From NCBI RefSeq assembly GCF_900101095.1, contig NZ_FNFM01000007.1, positions 62,001-126,000 on the forward strand: a stretch of DNA of 64,000 bases, given 5' to 3'. Positions 23,418-62,966 of this stretch are shown in pieces; position 1 is the first letter of the stretch; each line of letters begins with the position of its first letter. The notes under the pieces are model-generated. The model was not told the origin of the DNA and did not search any database. It worked only from the letters and a program-made list of their open reading frames with translations. The position numbers and the translations under genes are program-made. This DNA comes from Actinopolyspora mzabensis (GTDB lineage Bacteria; Actinomycetota; Actinomycetes; Mycobacteriales; Pseudonocardiaceae).

Positions 23418-23455
23418 AGTCAATCTGACTCTACTGACTCGATAGGCAAGTCAGT
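23418..23455. promoter_or_regulatory. Two palindromes in the Scr1-regulator divergent promoter
   Basis: AGTCAATCTGACT at 23418-23430 is a perfect inverted repeat with a 3-bp centre. It is followed by ACTGACT (23433-23439) and AGTCAGT (23449-23455), a second inverted repeat with a 9-bp centre. All half-sites share TGACT/AGTCA. They lie between the divergent regulator and hypothetical genes and are candidate operators. Confidence 0.55.
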
Positions 23456-23489
23456 GCCACTTGTCACGAACACCGTCGAAGAGGTAACC

Positions 23490-23810
23490 ATGCGTAACGC
23501 CATGACGCTGTACCGGGTGGTCAACCCCGACTCACTCGGCTCCTACACCGAACTGCTGCACCACCAGCCCACCGAGCACCGGGTAGACGACGCCGAAGCC
23601 TTGCCCCGGCTGCGCGAATGGGCGCTGGCCCTGCTCGACCGCACCGAGGAACGCTTCGGGATGTACCAGATCGCGATCATGCCGCTGGACCAACACCACA
23701 GACCCGACGAGAACGCCTTCCACGACCTCATCGCCGACGACACCGAGGTCATCGAGGACTACCTCTGCTGGTCCGGATGCTCCGAACTCGTCCCCGCCGG
23801 GGACAGGTGA
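23490..23810 (+). CDS. Hypothetical protein divergent from the Scr1-type regulator
   Basis: 106-residue soluble acidic protein that I do not recognise. It starts MRNAMTLYRVVNPDS after GAAGAGGTAACC and contains EALPRLREWALALLDRTEERFGMYQI and an acidic C-terminal half. Codon use is normal for the genome, and the divergent promoter with operator-like palindromes suggests that it is regulated together with the Scr1/DUF397 genes. Confidence 0.7.
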   Translation: MRNAMTLYRVVNPDSLGSYTELLHHQPTEHRVDDAEALPRLREWALALLDRTEERFGMYQIAIMPLDQHHRPDENAFHDLIADDTEVIEDYLCWSGCSELVPAGDR

Positions 23811-23840
23811 ACGCGCCCGGTTTACCGAGGTGGTTACTTG

Positions 23841-23947
23841 GCGGAACCTCGCGCACGGCTCTAGCTGCGGGTGCCCCGACATCGGGTAGTTACTACACAA
23901 CGTCGGGACCACCCTCGCGAGAGCCACACGCGAGAACCCGCAGCGGT
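23841..23947 (-). repeat. Long-hairpin intergenic repeat, copy B
   Basis: Read on the minus strand it runs from GCGGGTTCTCGCGTG through GGCTCTCGCGAGG to AGAGCCGTGCGCGAGGTTCC. It aligns with copy C (60385-60497) at about 80% identity by eye. The whole element folds into one hairpin: GCGGGTTCTCGCG pairs with CGCGAGGTTCCGC allowing wobbles, GGCTCT with AGAGCC, CCCGAC with GTCGGG, and the tip GTAG with CTAC around TAA. Several stem positions differ from copy C in a compensatory way. It lies between the convergent genes ending at 23810 and 24119. Confidence 0.7.
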
Positions 23948-23960
23948 GCCGACAGCGGGA

Positions 23961-24000
23961 GTGGTGGGAGTGCGGCCTGCGAGGGTGGTGGGAGTGCGGC
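23961..24000. repeat. 16-bp direct repeat
   Basis: GTGGTGGGAGTGCGGC occurs at 23961-23976 and 23985-24000, inside the composite repeat of copy B between its two modules. Confidence 0.6.
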
Positions 24001-24018
24001 TATTCGTCGGCGTTGGTG

Positions 24019-24099
24019 GCGCGGCGATTTCGCGAGAAATTGACGCCCACATCCGCCCTACCGCCCCAGTGGAGCGGGAATTTCGCGAGAAATCGACGC
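24019..24099 (-). repeat. Two copies of the 28-bp quasi-palindromic motif, copy B
   Basis: On the minus strand the unit at 24046-24019 starts GCGTCAATTTCTCGCG and matches the first unit of copy A at 25 of 28 positions. A second, weaker unit lies at 24099-24072. Order and orientation relative to the hairpin module are the same as in copy A and copy C. Confidence 0.7.
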
Positions 24100-24118
24100 C
24101 GCTCCGAGGCCGGGGCAG

Positions 24119-44521: not shown

Positions 44522-44593
44522 TGCGCGATACTGGGATCGAACCAGTGACCTCTACCGTGTCAAGGTAGCGCTCTCCCGCTGAGCTAATCGCGC
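44522..44593 (-). tRNA. tRNA-Val (GAC)
   Basis: 72-nt cloverleaf read on the minus strand: acceptor GCGCGAT/ATCGCGC, D-arm TAGCTCAGCGGGAGAGC, anticodon loop TTGACAC (anticodon GAC), T-loop GGTTCGATCC, discriminator A. The 3' CCA is not encoded. It is the last of three tandem tRNAs. Confidence 0.95.
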
Positions 44594-44594
44594 G

Positions 44595-44666
44595 AGGCGG
44601 AGGCGGGAATCGAACCCGCGTACAGGGCTTTGCAGGCCCTTGCCTGAGCCACTCGGCCACTCCGCC
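44595..44666 (-). tRNA. tRNA-Cys (GCA)
   Basis: Acceptor GGCGGAG/CTCCGCC, anticodon loop CTGCAAA (anticodon GCA), T-loop GGTTCGATTCC. It is separated by one base from tRNA-Val, so they are processed from one transcript. Confidence 0.95.
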
Positions 44667-44712
44667 GAAGCCACCGGTGGCAACGTCGCTCGGACGATCC
44701 GGTCGGCTACAG

Positions 44713-44784
44713 AGCGGATGACGGGATTCGAACCCGCGACCCTCACCTTGGCAAGGTGATGCGCTACCGCTGCGCTACATCCGC
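44713..44784 (-). tRNA. tRNA-Gly (GCC)
   Basis: Acceptor GCGGATG/CATCCGC, D-arm TAGCGCAGCGGTAGCGC, anticodon loop TTGCCAA (anticodon GCC), T-loop GGTTCGAATCC. It is the first gene of the Gly-Cys-Val cluster. Confidence 0.95.
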
Positions 44785-44967
44785 ACTCACGACGGGGCCG
44801 AACTCCTCCGCTCGGCGCCTCCGCCGTGTTCGGTCAAAACTCTAGACCACGCCGTGAACGGCGATCGAACCGGGGGGTCCTGTGCTGACAATCAGCACGA
44901 CAGCGGGCCGGAGCCCGCCGTCACCACCCGCGGGTCGGCACAACGCGGAATCACAGGCGACGCACGA

Positions 44968-45393
44968 TCACGAGAGGTCGTGCGGCAACAACCTCGTGAT
45001 CGCCTCGTCGATACTGACCCACAGCCCCTCGTTGCCCGGCACCACCACGTCGTAGGTGCGATCCAGGAAGTCCGCCAGCTCCTGGGCGGACGCCTCGAAC
45101 ACGGCATGTCCCGAGGGTGAGCTCAGCTCGATCACCACGACCTCGGGGTCGTCGGCGGCGGGCCTGATCGCCACGTCGCCCTCACCCGCGTGCGCGATCA
45201 GCCCGTCGGCCAGCAGATCACGCGCGAACACCCACTCGACCCAGCCGGCACGGCCGGTGCGGAACGCCGCGACGACGGCGTAGGGGTCGCGGGTGTCGTA
45301 CCGCAGTTCCACCTGAACCGGAACGGCGGGCGTCTGCGGGGCCAGCAGATCGAACACCGCTGTCGAACGAAGGGTCACATGATCGTTACGCAT
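44968..45393 (-). CDS. ssgB: SsgA-like sporulation/cell division regulator, SsgB type
   Basis: 141-residue protein of the SsgA-like family, found only in morphologically complex actinomycetes. SsgB recruits FtsZ to division sites during sporulation septation. The start MRNDHVTLRSTAVFDLLAPQ, then VPVQVELRYDTRDPYAVVAA and WVEWVFARDLLADGL, are characteristic. AGGAAGGCGAGG precedes the ATG. It lies near a PGPGW membrane protein gene, a neighbour seen in other genomes. Confidence 0.93.
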   Translation of the reverse strand: MRNDHVTLRSTAVFDLLAPQTPAVPVQVELRYDTRDPYAVVAAFRTGRAGWVEWVFARDLLADGLIAHAGEGDVAIRPAADDPEVVVIELSSPSGHAVFEASAQELADFLDRTYDVVVPGNEGLWVSIDEAITRLLPHDLS

Positions 45394-46123
45394 CGTCCTC
45401 GCCTTCCTAACTCCCTCCCGGTCGCAGCGAAGTCGACCGAGCTACACAGTTGTGACGGTTATCCGGGTCCGTTCGCTCGCAACCAACGAATAGATCACCC
45501 GTACGGGGGAAAATTAATTCGCTGAGCGACCGCAGAACTCCGTAGCGTAGCCAACAACTCCAGGGGGTGTACAAATTCCGCGATTCATCAACACGAGCCT
45601 CACCGCCTCGAAGAAAACCACCGATCCCACCGATCCGCAATCGGCGCCCCGGCCGGTTCCGCGGCAAGCCGAAATAATGCTTCCGAACCTTCTCGTGCGA
45701 CCCACCCGCACCACCCCCGGCCGGGAACGTGTACGAACCCGTCAACGACGCCCCCGGACGGCCACCACAACGCTCAAGCACTGAACCGGTCGATGCCTCG
45801 CGGCCACCACGGGACGCTGTTTTCAGGATAGTCGATAGTTGTACGACAAGCCGTTTCACACAAGAGCCCCGCGAGAGGCACACCACAAATGTTCACCGAA
45901 ACGGGCTAATATCAAATACTCCACTCTCGGGTTTTCACGCCTGAACCCGAAACCCAAAAGCGAGACCGGTGTCACACTGTGATATACACGATCACATCAT
46001 CGCCGCACCCATGACGAACGTCCGGAACGAAAATATGCGCCGCACGAGCCACTCTACAGGCACTGCAGCACCACGTAGGCTGAGACACTGACGGGGAGTC
46101 CCCTGTAGTACCGCCAGGATGAC
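45394..46123. other. 730-nt divergent intergenic region upstream of ssgB
   Basis: No gene is supported; the open frames here have no family pattern and lack convincing ribosome-binding sites. The length suggests a complex promoter for the developmental gene ssgB, but I recognise no specific operator. Confidence 0.45.
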
Positions 46124-46666
46124 ATGGGGCCGAGCTCACCCGGAAAGCAGGATCGGTCGGCAGGCAGGTGTGTTCTGAGTAAGACAGCAGAGCCCGGTTC
46201 GCAACACCGCGAGAACGAACCGCCGGACGCACACCTCTCGGGCTGGCGCGCACGTGTGCACCGCCTACGAGAGCGCTTTCGCGCGCGCCGGGAACGAATA
46301 CGCGCCAGACCGGCACTGAACACCCTTTACCGCTTCGGCCTCGGACTGCTCGGCGGAGTGGTACTCCTGCTGGGCATAGTGATGATTCCCTACCCGGGGC
46401 CCGGCTGGCTGTGCGTGTTCGCGGGCCTCGGACTGCTCGCAACCGAATTCGCCTGGGCACACCACGTGAACATGTTCGCCAAACACCACTACCAGCGCTG
46501 GATCCACTGGCTGTCCCGGCAGCACCCGGCGACACGACTGACGGTGATGACGACCACCGGACTCGTAGTGGTGGCCACCCTCTGGCTCATCGGCGCTTTT
46601 GACCTGGTCGGAGACTTCCTCGGTCTGCAGTGGAGCTGGCTGGCCTCCCCCCTGTTCCAGGCGTGA
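46124..46666 (+). CDS. TIGR02611-type (PGPGW) transmembrane protein
   Basis: 180-residue membrane protein with a charged, Arg-rich N-terminal 65 residues and two or three helices. The segment GIVMIPYPGPGWLCVFAGLG contains the PGPGW motif, followed by LLATEFAWAHH. The function is unknown. It precedes a tRNA-Val gene by 47 nt. ATG at 46124 has AGGATGAC upstream. Confidence 0.88.
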   Translation: MGPSSPGKQDRSAGRCVLSKTAEPGSQHRENEPPDAHLSGWRARVHRLRERFRARRERIRARPALNTLYRFGLGLLGGVVLLLGIVMIPYPGPGWLCVFAGLGLLATEFAWAHHVNMFAKHHYQRWIHWLSRQHPATRLTVMTTTGLVVVATLWLIGAFDLVGDFLGLQWSWLASPLFQA

Positions 46667-46713
46667 AAAGGATCGTGTAAGCTTCTTGTTGTCGCTGCGG
46701 CAGAGGCGACAAC

Positions 46714-46785
46714 GGGCGATTAGCTCAGCGGGAGAGCGCTTCGTTCACACCGAAGAGGTCGCTGGTTCGAACCCAGCATCGCCCA
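46714..46785 (+). tRNA. tRNA-Val (CAC)
   Basis: 72-nt cloverleaf with acceptor GGGCGAT/ATCGCCC, D-arm TAGCTCAGCGGGAGAGC, anticodon loop TTCACAC (anticodon CAC), T-loop GGTTCGAACCC, discriminator A. The body is very close to the GAC isoacceptor at 44522-44593. A strong terminator follows. Confidence 0.96.
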
Positions 46786-58105: not shown

Positions 58106-59077
58106 GTGGGCATGAACTGGGACGATTCCCGATACCGGCGGCAACTGGACCTGACGCGTCCCTGTGGCGCACGAATCACCGACGCTTTCCTCGGGGGCTG
58201 CCACAACTTCGGTGTCGAGCGAGAGTTCGTGGAACGCGCCGAGCGGAGGATCCCCGGGATCACCGCCACGATGCGGGAGAGCCGGGCGTTTCTGCGTCGC
58301 GCGGTCGACCACTCCCTCGCATCGGGGATCAGGCAGTTCATCGACCTCGGTTCGGGCTTGCCGACCGTGGGCCACATCCACGAGATAGCGGGCAGGCTCA
58401 CTTCCGACTACCGGGTCGTCTACGTGGACAACGAACCGTTGACCGCGGCGCACGGTGCTCGGCTCCTGACTGAGGAACCGAACACGGCGCTGTTGCACGA
58501 GGACTGCCGCGAGATCGACTCGGTACTCGCCGCGCCGGAACTACGACGGCTGATCGACCTGAACGAGCCGGTGGCGCTGGTACTGACCGGGGTGGTGCAC
58601 TCGCTGCCGGAGAGTTCGGACCCGCGTGCACTGGTGAGTTCCTACCGCCGGAAGCTGGCGACCGGCAGCCACTTGGTGCTCGCCCACCTGACCGACAGCC
58701 TCCAACCCGATCGGGCTCGAACCCTGCAACGACTGTACTCGGAGAGTTCGGATCCGGTGTTCGCCCGCGGTACCGGTTGGATCGACACGCTGTTCGGGGA
58801 CTTCGAGATACTCGCCCCCGGGCCGGGCCCGCTCACGGCCTGGCGCCCCGATCCCCGGGAAACCGGGGAGACCGAACGCTGTCGGATGCTCTACGGCGGA
58901 ATCGGCCGCAAACGCGAACCCGCGGAAGTCGTTTCGGCGACAGCCGGTTCAGTGGGCACGGCGCACGGTGGTGCGGCGCCACACGATCCACAGCGAAACG
59001 GCGGCGAGCAGAGCCACCAATCCAGCGGCGGACCACGCCTCGGCCAGTCCGGCTTGCGAGGCCACCACTCCGAATAG
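58106..59077 (+). CDS. SAV2177/DUF574-type SAM-dependent methyltransferase, second copy
   Basis: 323-residue relative of the methyltransferase at 30720-31526, with ITDAFLGGCHNFGVEREFVE, the SAM loop LGSGLPTVGHIHEIAG and VVYVDNEPLTAAHGARL. The family part ends near YGGIGRKREP; the last 45 or so residues are low-complexity and lie entirely opposite the 3' end of the MFS transporter gene, so the original stop codon may have been lost. GTG at 58106 or ATG at 58112 could be the start. Confidence 0.88.
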   Translation: MGMNWDDSRYRRQLDLTRPCGARITDAFLGGCHNFGVEREFVERAERRIPGITATMRESRAFLRRAVDHSLASGIRQFIDLGSGLPTVGHIHEIAGRLTSDYRVVYVDNEPLTAAHGARLLTEEPNTALLHEDCREIDSVLAAPELRRLIDLNEPVALVLTGVVHSLPESSDPRALVSSYRRKLATGSHLVLAHLTDSLQPDRARTLQRLYSESSDPVFARGTGWIDTLFGDFEILAPGPGPLTAWRPDPRETGETERCRMLYGGIGRKREPAEVVSATAGSVGTAHGGAAPHDPQRNGGEQSHQSSGGPRLGQSGLRGHHSE

Positions 59078-60142
59078 CAGCGGCCCGGCGCTACCGCCGA
59101 TGTAGACGCCGGTCTGGCTGACCGAGGTCGCGCCGGCGACCCGCCGCGGGTACAACCCGGCCACCGCGAAGTTGAGCAGCCCCGGCCACGACCAGCCCGC
59201 CCCGAAACCGACTACGGCTCCGATCAGGAATGCCACCGGTAGCGGCAGCGCCATCAGCACGAATCCCGCGGATCCGATCAACAGCAGTAACGTGATCACC
59301 CCTATGGGGTTCGGATTCCTGCGGTCCGCCAGCACCCCCATCGTCAACCGCATGCACAGTCCGGCGACCGACCCCACGGCAAGCACCAGTCCGGCGGTGC
59401 CGGGGTCGAAACCGACCTCCACTCCGGTCGTGGTCACGAAGGAGCCCAGCGAATTCGCCGCCGCCGAGGCGAGCCCCGCTGCCAGGGTTATCAGCAGCAG
59501 TACGCTCCTGCCCGGCTCGGCCGACTCCGTTCTCGTGACGGCGGTGGAACCGCCGTGGCCGGTCACGCTCCTCGGCACGGCCAACGCGGCAACCAGTCCG
59601 ACCAGCGCCGCGCCCGCAAAGGCCCAGCGCCAGCTGAACGTCAGCGCCACTGCCGGGACGGCCAGCCCCGCCAGCAGAGTGGACGCCGGAATGGCGGACT
59701 GCTTGATACCGAAAGCGGTGGCGCGACGGGTGCCGGGCACGCACCGCGCGATCAGCAGATTGGAGGCGGGCTGCCCCAGGGCGTTGGGAAGCCCGGCCAG
59801 CCACAACATCACCAGCAGCCAGCCCAGGTTTCGAGAAGCCGCGATTCCCCCGGCGCAAACCGCGCTGCCCACCGCGGCCAACCGCATCGCGGGAACGGGC
59901 CCGATCCGCTCGGAGAGCCAACCCATCAGCCGGGAGGAAAGCGCTGCCACCGCGAAGAACCCGGCGGCACCGGCACCGAGCACGGCGGGACCGAATCCGA
60001 AGTCCTGTTGCAGCTGAACCCCGAGGCCGCCGACGAGGAACGCTGGCAGGATTCCCACGGTCACCACCACCGCGACCGCGGACATCGCCCGCTTGGGCAA
60101 TCGGACCGCGGGGTCACGTGTCAGCGGCATCGCTTCCGGCAT
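58949..60142 (-). CDS. Major facilitator superfamily transporter
   Basis: Membrane transporter of about 397 residues with twelve predicted helices. The motif A position between helices 2 and 3 reads GWLSERIGPVPAMRL and that between 8 and 9 reads GVLADRRNPNP. The substrate is unknown; CynX/NimT-like relatives carry small anions. ATG at 60142 is the best start, with no strong ribosome-binding site. The 3' end overlaps the methyltransferase gene on the other strand by 129 nt. Confidence 0.9.
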   Translation of the reverse strand: MPEAMPLTRDPAVRLPKRAMSAVAVVVTVGILPAFLVGGLGVQLQQDFGFGPAVLGAGAAGFFAVAALSSRLMGWLSERIGPVPAMRLAAVGSAVCAGGIAASRNLGWLLVMLWLAGLPNALGQPASNLLIARCVPGTRRATAFGIKQSAIPASTLLAGLAVPAVALTFSWRWAFAGAALVGLVAALAVPRSVTGHGGSTAVTRTESAEPGRSVLLLITLAAGLASAAANSLGSFVTTTGVEVGFDPGTAGLVLAVGSVAGLCMRLTMGVLADRRNPNPIGVITLLLLIGSAGFVLMALPLPVAFLIGAVVGFGAGWSWPGLLNFAVAGLYPRRVAGATSVSQTGVYIGGSAGPLLFGVVASQAGLAEAWSAAGLVALLAAVSLWIVWRRTTVRRAH

Positions 60143-60267
60143 CACGGCACCAGTCCTCGTCGGCTCCGGTAACGGGCACCCCATGTCCTAGCACTCCGTA
60201 CCGTTACACCGAACGGACCAGTGACCGATCCCTCGCCCGGCGCTCCGGTTCGCTCGCCCACACCCCG

Positions 60268-60295
60268 GTGCACATTTCGCGGGAAATCACCACCG
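60268..60295 (+). repeat. 28-bp quasi-palindromic motif, copy C (diverged)
   Basis: CATTTCGCGGGAAATCACC matches the core of the motif in copies A and B, with about 18 of 28 positions shared with copy A. It lies 90 nt before the hairpin module, in the same order and orientation as the other copies. Confidence 0.5.
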
Positions 60296-60384
60296 CCCTG
60301 CCTCACTGACGCTTTCCTGCCCTGCTGTCGGGCGGGATAGGTCTTTTACGGTTCCGATAACACCGAAAGCCACCTCACCAACGC

Positions 60385-60497
60385 GACCACCCGCGGGTTC
60401 TCCCGTGCGGCTCTCGCGAGGACGCCGGAGACGTGGCGTAGTACCTACTCGATGTCTCCGGACCCGCAGCGAGAGCCGTGCGAGAGGTTCCGCCGAG
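60385..60497 (+). repeat. Long-hairpin intergenic repeat, copy C
   Basis: The element folds end to end: GCGGGTTCTCCCGTGC pairs with GTGCGAGAGGTTCCGC (wobbles, one C-A mismatch), GGCTCTCGC with GCGAGAGCC, CCGGAGAC with GTCTCCGG, and tip GTAG with CTAC around TAC. It lies between the MFS gene start and the 3' end of the glutaryl-CoA dehydrogenase gene, in a 389-nt gap with no coding sequence. Confidence 0.7.
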
Positions 60498-60531
60498 CGA
60501 GCGACCCGCCAACCCGACCGGAAAGCTTCAA

Positions 60532-61722
60532 TCAGTCCCGGAAGGCCTGCATCCCCGTCATCGCGGCGCCGATAGTCAGCGCGTGCATCTCGGAGGTTCC
60601 CTCGTAGGTCAGCACCGACTCGAGATTGGTCATGTGCCGCATCACCGGGTACTCCAGCGAGATGCCGTTGGCGCCCAACACGGTCCGGGCGGTGCGCGCG
60701 ACCTCCAGCGCGCCGCGCACGTTGTCCAGCTTTCCGAAGCTGACCTGCTGCGGCAGCAGCCTGCCCTCGTCCTTGCGCCTGCCGAGGTGCAGCGCGAGCA
60801 ACCGCGCGTTGTGCACCCGCACCGCCATGTCGGCGAGCTTGGACTGGGTGAGCTGGTGGCCGGCCAGGGGTTTGCCGAACTGCTCGCGCGTGGTGGAGTA
60901 GTCCAGTGCCGCGCGCAGACAGCTGTGCGCGGCGCCGGTGGCTCCCCAGACGATGCCGTACCTGGCCTCGTTCAAACAGCTCAGCGGACCACGCAGCCCG
61001 GTCGCTTCCGGCAGCACGGCGTCCTGCGGCAAGCGGACGTCGTCGAGGACGAGTTCACTGGTCACGGAGGCGCGCAGCGAGAGCTTGTGCCGCATCTCCG
61101 GTGCGGCGAAGCCCGGTGTGTCGGTGGGGACGACGAAGCCGCGGATCCCCTCGTCGGTGCTCGCCCAGACGACCGCGACGTCGGCGATCGTGCCGTTGGT
61201 GATCCACATCTTGCGACCGTTGAGGACCCAGTCCGTGCCGTCCCGGCGTGCCGAGGTACGCATCGAAGCCGGATCCGAGCCGTGGTCGGGTTCGGTCAGG
61301 CCGAAACAGCCGATGGCCTCCCCAGCCGCCATGCTCGGCAACCAGTGCTGCTTCTGCTCCTCGGAGCCCCAGCGCCACAGGGCGAACATCGCCAGCGACC
61401 CCTGCACCGACACCAACGAGCGGAGTCCGGAGTCGCACGCCTCCAGCTCCTCACAGGCCACGCCGTAGTCCACAGCCGACATCCCGGCGCAGCCATAGCC
61501 GTCCAGATGCATGCCGAGCACGCCGAGCCCACCGAGTTCACGCGCCAGCTCGCGCGCCGCGGGCAGTTCACCGTTCTCGAACCACTCCCCCACGTAGGGC
61601 TGCACCCGGTCGCGACACAGCGCACGGACGCTGTCCCGGATGGCCAGTTGTTCGGTGCTGAGCTCGTCGTCGATGCCCAGCGGGTCGCGGGGATCGAAGT
61701 CCGGGCGGGTTCCGGCGTTCAT
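60532..61722 (-). CDS. gcdH: Glutaryl-CoA dehydrogenase-type acyl-CoA dehydrogenase
   Basis: FAD enzyme of 396 residues that oxidises and decarboxylates glutaryl-CoA to crotonyl-CoA in lysine and tryptophan catabolism. Characteristic segments are GCFGLTEPDHGSDPASM, KMWITNGTIADVAVVWA, and ARTVLGANGISLEYPVMRHM, followed by LESVLTYEGTSEMH with the catalytic Glu. It is 23 nt downstream of a family III CoA-transferase gene, the usual partner that makes glutaryl-CoA. Confidence 0.92.
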   Translation of the reverse strand: MNAGTRPDFDPRDPLGIDDELSTEQLAIRDSVRALCRDRVQPYVGEWFENGELPAARELARELGGLGVLGMHLDGYGCAGMSAVDYGVACEELEACDSGLRSLVSVQGSLAMFALWRWGSEEQKQHWLPSMAAGEAIGCFGLTEPDHGSDPASMRTSARRDGTDWVLNGRKMWITNGTIADVAVVWASTDEGIRGFVVPTDTPGFAAPEMRHKLSLRASVTSELVLDDVRLPQDAVLPEATGLRGPLSCLNEARYGIVWGATGAAHSCLRAALDYSTTREQFGKPLAGHQLTQSKLADMAVRVHNARLLALHLGRRKDEGRLLPQQVSFGKLDNVRGALEVARTARTVLGANGISLEYPVMRHMTNLESVLTYEGTSEMHALTIGAAMTGMQAFRD

Positions 61723-61745
61723 CTGCTCATGCCTCCAAGGACGCG

Positions 61746-62966
61746 TCAGATCGGGTGAATGTCCATTCCCGGACCGGTGAGATCGCGAGCTCGCGATTCC
61801 GGTTCGGGCGCGGCCGGGGGCACCCCGCGGCCGAGCAGCCAGTCGAGGATCTCGGTGTTGTGCTCGCCCAACCGTGGTGGCGGGGAGGGACGGGCGTGGC
61901 CGGACTCGGACAGTCCTATCGGGTTGCGTACCGACGGGGACTCCCCGCCGCCGGGGGAAACGGTGGGGGCCAGGCCCAGGGACTCCGCGTAGCGCACCGC
62001 CCCGGCCAGGTCGTTGACCTGTCCGCAGGCGATTCCCACCCGCTGCAGCCGGTGTTGCCAGGCGGCGGCCGGACGTGCCCCGAGCACGTTCTCCAGTTCG
62101 ACCACGAGCTCCTCGCGGTTGTGCACCCGATCCGCGTTGGTGGCGAACCGCGGGTCGTCGGCCATCCCGACGAGCCCGAGGGTTTCGGTGAACCTGCGGA
62201 ACTGCTCGTCGTTGCCTACGGCCACGGCGAGCGACGCGTCCTCACAACGCAGTGTCTCGTAGGGGGCGATACTGGGATGCCGGTTTCCCATACGTTCCGG
62301 ACTCTCACCGGTCGCCAGGAAACCGCCGACCTGGTTGACCAGCCCGGAAAGCAGGCTGGAGAGCAGGTTGACCTCGATGTGCTGCCCGCGGCCGGTGGAC
62401 TCGCGCTGCCGCAGCGCGGCCAGGACACCGAGCGCCGCGTCCTTGCCGGTGAGCACGTCCACGACGGCAACCCCCACCTTGTTGGGTGGCCCGTCGGGTT
62501 CCCCGGTGATGCTCATCAGCCCGCCGACGGCCTGCACCACGAAGTCGTAGCCCGCCAGCTCAGCCCCTTCCGCGCTGCCGAAGCCGGAGACGGAGACGTA
62601 GAGCAGACCGGGGTTGTCCGCGTGGAGGCTCTCGTAGTCGAGCCCGAACCGCTCCAGTGCGCCCGGCTTGTGGTTCTCCACCAGCACGTCGGCGCGGCGA
62701 GCGAGCTCTGTCGCGGCGGCGCGGTCGCGCTCGGCGGCCAGGTCGAGGGTGACGCTGTGTTTCCCCCGGTTCAGCGATTCGAAGTAGGCAGAGCCCGAGT
62801 CGGTCCACGGCGGTCCCCAGGCTCGGGTGTCGTCCCCGGTGTCGGGGCGTTCGACCTTGACGACGGTGGCACCGAGATCGGCGAGCAGCATCGTCGCGTA
62901 GGGGCCCGCGAGCACCCGGCTGAAGTCCGCGACGAGCACCCCCTCCAACGGCAGAGTCCGCGCCAT
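61746..62966 (-). CDS. Family III (CaiB/BaiF) CoA-transferase, probable glutarate CoA-transferase
   Basis: 406-residue enzyme that transfers CoA between acyl groups. Features are LVADFSRVLAGPYATMLLAD, VKVERPDTGDDTR, FESLNRGKHSVTLDL, and the likely catalytic Asp170 in VGVAVVDVLTG. Being upstream of gcdH, it probably activates glutarate with succinyl-CoA, like SUGCT. ATG at 62966 follows GGGAG; the long frame to 63473 crosses the promoter and is not coding. It is divergent from a GntR regulator. Confidence 0.9.
   Translation of the reverse strand: MARTLPLEGVLVADFSRVLAGPYATMLLADLGATVVKVERPDTGDDTRAWGPPWTDSGSAYFESLNRGKHSVTLDLAAERDRAAATELARRADVLVENHKPGALERFGLDYESLHADNPGLLYVSVSGFGSAEGAELAGYDFVVQAVGGLMSITGEPDGPPNKVGVAVVDVLTGKDAALGVLAALRQRESTGRGQHIEVNLLSSLLSGLVNQVGGFLATGESPERMGNRHPSIAPYETLRCEDASLAVAVGNDEQFRRFTETLGLVGMADDPRFATNADRVHNREELVVELENVLGARPAAAWQHRLQRVGIACGQVNDLAGAVRYAESLGLAPTVSPGGGESPSVRNPIGLSESGHARPSPPPRLGEHNTEILDWLLGRGVPPAAPEPESRARDLTGPGMDIHPI

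Follow-up and report, generated by a model that had tools for sequence, protein, structure and literature searches.

The two long hairpins in the window (the whole 64,000-nucleotide stretch of Actinopolyspora mzabensis DNA analysed here) are members of a genome-wide repeat family, and they are probably the cores of high-copy, non-autonomous, MITE-like transposable elements of Pseudonocardiaceae, in which a foldable core is moved in trans. The young Actinopolyspora subfamily that includes the second hairpin, copy 2, is a MITE-like mobile element. The family also occurs in industrially used actinomycetes (Saccharopolyspora, Amycolatopsis); it is abundant, datable through orthologous empty sites and testable by strand-specific RNA data.

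The two hairpins of the window

The features of the two copies are as follows.

23808-23810, plus strand: TGA stop codon of the upstream open reading frame 23454-23810, 30 nt before copy 1 (L088)
23811-23840, plus strand: leader of copy 1
23841-23941, plus strand: hairpin core of copy 1, canonical strand GCGGAACCTC...GAGAACCCGC (G000:C8:85841-85941, 105.4 bits)
23946-23993, plus strand: two G-rich 24-nt direct repeats in the trailer of copy 1
24016-24100, plus strand: two 32-nt repeats with the palindrome ATTTCGCGAGAAAT, on the far side of copy 1
60303-60305, minus strand: TGA, right-hand copy of the 3-bp target duplication of copy 2
60306-60531, minus strand: 226-bp mobile unit around copy 2, with ends TTGAAGCTTTCC... 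and ...GGAAAGCGTCAG
60393-60493, minus strand: hairpin core of copy 2 (G000:C8:122393-122493, 108.1 bits)
60532-60534, minus strand: TGA, both the stop codon of the acyl-CoA dehydrogenase gene (60532-61722) and the left-hand target duplication

The original prediction, made by eye, described two intergenic copies folding end to end with roughly 80% identity, and this description was borne out. Copy 1 folds at -70.8 kcal/mol (z -8.35) and copy 2 at -70.0 kcal/mol (z -6.76), none of 200 shuffles folding equally well in either case, while the two copies are identical in 84 of 103 alignment columns (81.6%). The stem exchange that had been pointed out, CCCGAC/GTCGGG in one copy and CCGGAGAC/GTCTCCGG in the other, is present between them. 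The reading frame upstream of copy 1 has no Pfam match, and the similarity of the copy 1 region to other loci stops near 24107. The 14-bp palindrome ATTTCGCGAGAAAT and its variants lie beside many copies, in the window at 24016-24100 and 60274-60287, and the corresponding palindromes ATTTCAATGGAAAT at Saccharopolyspora hirsuta loci appear to be insertion points of hairpin units. The window also contains four tRNA genes (44522-46785).

Family size and distribution

A covariance-model search, which had been suggested as a check, was run with model R1, built from alignment A2 of 24 diverse copies. It returned 134 matches at 133 places in the genome of the window (E<=0.001, 150 candidates scored), one place being counted on both strands and two places lying within the window; a single-copy DNA query returned at least 41 matches there (40 of 211 candidates scored). 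Scarcity of further copies and differences that break pairing, both named in advance as grounds for abandoning the idea, are absent: the matches are many and pairing is kept. Among the genomes sampled from Pseudonocardiaceae, the host's family, R1 matched 40 of 150, in 13 of 46 genera; at most 27 candidates were scored per genome, so that these copy numbers are lower bounds. The DNA query matched 13 of 61 genomes, namely all ten of the genus and three from other genera, with only 2 matches in one member of the genus (G006). In a class-wide sample of 296 genomes, for which the filters were tightened, 13 candidates were scored per genome and the threshold was E<=1e-6, the genome of the window was the sole match.

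A pattern scan of named genomes yielded at least 109 stretches, whose hosts, among the matches listed, include Actinopolyspora, many Saccharopolyspora species, Halopolyspora, Amycolatopsis, Sciscionella and Saccharomonospora. One match in Azorhizobium (L184), inside a gene call, was taken as chance; it was excluded from the 316 cores described below and retained in the set of 97 used for neighbour counts. A locus of A. righensis (L212) has its upstream flank in common with L035, a locus of the window's genus.

The earlier statement that no described family matches agrees with Rfam 15, in which only tRNAs reached the gathering threshold across five sources (the window, L001, L041, L042 and L053), and only miRNA look-alikes far below their gathering score appeared at E<=1. 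Titles and abstract openings returned by literature searches contained no description of this hairpin family, and the terms searched for did not occur in a review of MITEs (PMC10969869). A transcriptome of S. erythraea has been published (PMC3610266, consulted in part).

Hairpin architecture and covariation

On the canonical strand, which begins with GCGGAACCTC, the core opens with a 4-bp helix and a conserved AAC/AAC internal loop, continues through a long variable helix, a conserved asymmetric loop and a second variable helix, and closes with a conserved 5x5 loop and a 4-bp tip helix. The internal loops are conserved while the helices covary: paired cells amount to 97.2% in A2, both sides have changed at 15 of 30 pairs, and the stems differ yet stay complementary in other genera and in G006 (L041, L042, L053, L054). 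The significance check proposed for this covariation gave a score of 0.260, against 0.071 for shuffled alignments (0 of 500 reaching it) and at most 0.063 when the structure was slid, with the structure derived from A2 itself. The compensatory stem differences of the original prediction are thus present, although whole-hairpin exchange, as opposed to stepwise change, can produce part of them. The kept GTAG/CTAC tip had to be narrowed, since it is not universal: a Saccharopolyspora branch carries TGTAT/ATACA instead, and one copy in G021 (L043) lacks the tip.

Leader and trailer are G-rich on the canonical strand. Behind the main hairpin stands GGCGGTGC... or a similar sequence or, where the other strand is read, C-rich sequence; reading by eye did not find the U run directly behind a G+C-rich hairpin that marks an intrinsic terminator.

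A second long-hairpin family of different sequence (in Actinopolyspora GTGAGTCGGCGCC...CCGACTCAC) adjoins or partly replaces copies of the first, at G000:C8:62350-62760 (L145) and at L007, L015, L042, L054 and L058; in most of those loci its tip, GAGTAGCGACCTACGC, is similar to that of the first family.

Transposition of the 226-bp unit

Window positions 58600-62600 were compared with ten genomes of the genus, the window's own included. In the three closest (G007, G004 and G009) both flanks align and about 233 bp around copy 2 are absent, the stop codon being followed directly by a ATTTCTCGCGAAAT palindrome block that in the window's genome lies beyond the 226-bp unit. In the aligned stretches of the other six, no unit follows the stop; the alignment reads as a short remnant of an opposite-orientation copy at this site in G001 and G005. 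A sister copy in G003, with TGA on both sides, is likewise matched by a continuous, cleanly empty gene end in both genomes compared (G000 and G009), and L306 of G008 is the same insertion.

Alignment of 13 copies of this subfamily, from nine distinct sites, revealed sharp ends and a CTNAG target. The unit, 226 bp in the window and about 220-235 bp elsewhere in the subfamily, has imperfect inverted ends (TTGAAGTTTTCC / CTGATGCTTTCC), in which about 12 of 16 end bases match and similarity extends to about 25 by manual count. Identical TNA stands on both sides in 9 of the 13 aligned copies and is inexact in L292, L296, L299 and L301; six further loci (L302, L303, L304, L306, L307, L308) have both ends and matching TGA or TCA. 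The insertion at TCA (L307/L308) indicates that orientation to the target is not absolute. At seven of the nine distinct sites the TNA serves as in-frame stop to a reading frame that scores as coding (scores 19-47), the exceptions being L292 and the L295-297 site; empty alleles confirm two of the seven. If about 0.27-0.35 is expected, seven of nine corresponds to p 0.002-0.011, or to p 0.09 if the expectation is 0.5; on G000:C8, where gene calls are incomplete, CTNAG occurs 36 times at called stops, 95 times in intergenic sequence and 147 times in coding sequence. Three loci (L302, L303, L304) hold 133- and 122-bp internal-deletion units that have kept ends and duplications and lost much of the hairpin.

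The family is thus a short, non-coding, multicopy unit, with inverted ends, target duplications and empty sites in its young subfamily; inverted ends and duplications were seen only there. Of the two readings originally offered, the palindromic mobile DNA unit therefore has direct evidence of mobility for one subfamily, copy 2 included, and the other branches lie outside that demonstration.

Bacterial MITEs include ERIC/RU-1 (RU elements: PMC2759123, consulted in part), RUP, Correia and others. Like these, the present family is short, non-coding, intergenic, high in copy number, foldable and bounded by inverted ends and a short target duplication. It differs from them in that its long hairpin is internal, with conserved internal loops and freely varying complementary stems, and in that about half of the examined copies follow a stop codon at an almost constant spacing and in a single orientation.

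Position behind stop codons

The position behind stop codons had gone unnoticed in the original prediction. Motif searches collected 316 distinct cores, of which 254 had enough flank, a fitting length and a distinct leader; genes were called with a simple codon-usage scorer trained on the window rather than taken from annotation. A same-strand coding-scored stop lies 20-59 nt before the hairpin in 135 of these 254 copies, against 8 of 254 on the mirror side (p 1e-40, with copies within one genome not independent). By source, the docked copies number 31 of 47 in the window's genome (a sample of its 133 places), 41 of 84 at other loci and 63 of 123 in named records (mostly Saccharopolyspora, some Actinopolyspora), with mirror-side counts of 0, 4 and 4. 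No upstream gene was detected for 85 of the 254 copies; among the 169 examined copies with a detected same-strand upstream gene, the distance from its stop is 30-49 nt in 125. One uniform branch, from Saccharopolyspora, has a sense stop 20-59 nt ahead of the hairpin in only 3 of its 15 copies. Integron attC hairpins also follow stop codons.

The docked stops are 94 TGA, 32 TAG and 9 TAA. In the window's genome TGA accounts for only 19 of 31 docked copies, against 193 of 215 called genes of G000:C8, so that TAG and TAA are commoner at these older copies than genome-wide (12/31 versus 22/215, p 0.0002). Nor is C significantly enriched before the stop at older docked copies (75/139 versus 204/433 control genes, p 0.17). 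Targeting of CTNAG fits the young subfamily (7/9) and was rejected as the full cause of docking: since older copies show no excess of C and are rich in TAG and TAA, such targeting alone is insufficient for their position. Older copies behind TAG, TAA or TGA without the C of CTNAG are the strongest reason for considering a functional role at the 3' end. Docking by targeting would give a mobile element an unusual route to sites where it does no damage; docking by selection would mean that many genes of actinomycetes such as Saccharopolyspora and Amycolatopsis share a movable 3'-end structure.

Exchange and decay of copies

Orthologous sites were compared over 310 kb of the window's genome against G009, and in part against G003. 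Of eight sites present in some form in G000 and G009, only S2 and S7 are intact in both, five (S1, S3, S4, S6, S8) are truncated, interrupted or reduced to a remnant in one genome, and S5 is weak in both. In G009 the orthologues of S1 and S8 have lost everything beyond the tip and retain the 5' half, and S6 is reduced to a remnant; in G000, S3 is cut after about ten hairpin bases and the 5' half of S4 is replaced by a stretch holding the second hairpin family. Orthologous copies break at the tip repeatedly, which makes it look like a hotspot of breakage. Breakpoints there are seen at G000:C8:22269 (L143) against L159 and at G000:C8:282640 (L156) against L172; the two G009 copies stop at GGGTAG plus three bases, and a copy in G003:C1 near 3478560 (L175) has no apex.

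One clear case demonstrates that a hairpin core can be exchanged for that of another locus, for which gene conversion is the simplest account. The S7 orthologues are 95% identical in their leaders, 80% in their cores and 75% in their trailers, and each core is closer to another copy (94% and 98%), that of G009 being 98% identical to a locus of the same genome; as the trailer has diverged too, the exchange may extend beyond the hairpin. S2 lacks this pattern (leader 65%, core 82%). At five more pairs of orthologous loci the identity of the cores is 95-100%, while the trailers of one pair are at 53%. Because cores can be exchanged between loci, family-wide covariation overstates the number of independent compensations.

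Tests for selection on pairing

Recent changes were read as private changes in 88 cores forming 11 clusters (241 of the 316 cores being usable). A first count of transitions to transversions gave 29:10 in stems, 23:30 in the unpaired core and 106:175 in ungapped flanks, the last including misaligned positions, and the p-values derived from it are superseded by a strict recount that drops any change with another change within 2 bases. The recount gave 28:6 in stems, 17:23 in the unpaired core and 26:10 in flanks, so that stems differ from the unpaired core (p 0.0007) and not significantly from the flanks (p 0.40). The claim of selection on recent stem changes was accordingly withdrawn, and none is made for pairing in resident copies. 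Lower private variability of the cores was also rejected as evidence, the clusters having been formed on core similarity. Of ten distinct private double changes, nine preserve pairing, an outcome that may stem from selection, from exchange or from templated arm correction. Selection on a folded RNA, the other reading first offered, thus keeps the strong covariation at family level, and against it stand the recent changes and a better-paired strand that is the one opposite the gene.

Alternative explanations

A cis-acting 3'-UTR RNA, a structure at the transcript end that benefits the host (in the stability, processing or termination of mRNA), is kept at a constant spacing from the stop and owes only its spread to transposition, would explain the excess of docking over the mirror side (135 versus 8 of 254), the family-level covariation with its conserved internal loops and, though exchange could produce these as well, the nine double changes that keep a pair. 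It is nevertheless rather unlikely, because private single changes in stems do not stand apart from flanks and only the unpaired core differs, because five of eight sites are damaged in one of two genomes with S5 weak in both, because docking is rare (3/15) in the uniform Saccharopolyspora branch, and because the sense strand is the less well paired. Of 283 cores, 253 fold more stably as antisense RNA, with a mean advantage of 7-9 kcal/mol, and isolated stem mismatches favour A-C over G-U on the gene strand by 74:26, which reads as G-U on the opposite strand; some of these mismatches may be inherited, and private changes alone give no significant strand bias (18:11, p 0.26). On the antisense strand of leader and trailer, C exceeds G 1.65-1.79-fold, falling to 1.04-1.07 further out. 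These asymmetries would suit a barrier to antisense transcription, in which RNA arriving from downstream meets a C-rich, G-poor stretch and a very stable hairpin and undergoes Rho-like termination at the gene boundary. A G-T pair is the milder mismatch in DNA too, so that the mismatch bias cannot separate RNA from single-stranded DNA. Beside the private changes, neighbouring genes also speak against such a barrier. Copies flanked by a sense gene upstream and a called gene downstream have convergent neighbours in 37 of 75 cases (the chance Azorhizobium match is among the 37), against 52 of 91 for control genes with gaps of 100-199 nt and 30 of 62 for those with gaps of 200-400 nt, and a preference for convergent genes was rejected. 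The barrier as an explanation is improbable. A combined form, in which the mobile family takes up sites at the ends of reading frames and its strand-specific hairpin acts at the transcript boundary, for example as a gene-end insulator that blocks antisense transcription, has a slightly better but still small chance of being correct; if true, many unrelated genes would have a transposon-borne insulator in common.

REP elements moved by RAYT transposases have, by definition, a short hairpin with the tetranucleotide GTAG or GGAG at its foot. The present family is likewise found in high copy number, intergenic, folded and strand-asymmetric, and it contains a GTAG motif, which would fit a REP-like element moved by a RAYT tyrosine transposase acting on a single-stranded hairpin. 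In alignment A2, however, GTAG stands at the tip and not at the foot, the unit ends are inverted repeats with a 3-bp duplication, and the only Y1_Tnp match of the genome adjoins what by eye is a TnpB-like reading frame, as in IS605. With no gene of RAYT type found in the genome, this origin was rejected and is extremely improbable. REP/BIME sequences (PMC2817692, consulted in part) also exceed 100 copies per genome as intergenic hairpins, but the window family has no GTAG/GGAG foot, a much longer hairpin, inverted ends and a target duplication.

Proposed mechanism and candidate transposase

For the MITE-like family, a DDE transposase of IS5-like type would act in trans and cut at the unit ends, and gene ends reading C-TGA-G would offer landing sites harmless to the gene. 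Gene conversion would homogenise the hairpin cores, and the conserved fold would be needed for propagation or for some function at transcript ends. A scan of ten genomes for the inverted-end pattern, read by eye, found no intact autonomous partner, the sole inverted pair at the distance of an insertion sequence being a 2.9-kb coincidence in G009 that ends in a 133-bp unit. Among 52 transposase loci (Pfam PF01609, PF13359) there was one broken candidate, L350 (1422-2363; G002:C1 near 976093), a PF13359 element with ends TGAGCGTTTTCC / TGAGGGTTTTCC and CAGTGA on both sides, which is a possible relative of the autonomous partner. Elements with PF13359 are presumably IS5-like insertion sequences, a label based on Pfam. 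The ends of L350 resemble the MITE ends, whereas no intact copy with exactly the ends of the MITE unit was found in these searches. Other IS-like elements of the genus duplicate TNA, as the MITE unit does: L312, L315 and L316 have perfect or near-perfect inverted ends and TNA duplications (TAA, TTA), and two of the three share identical ends.
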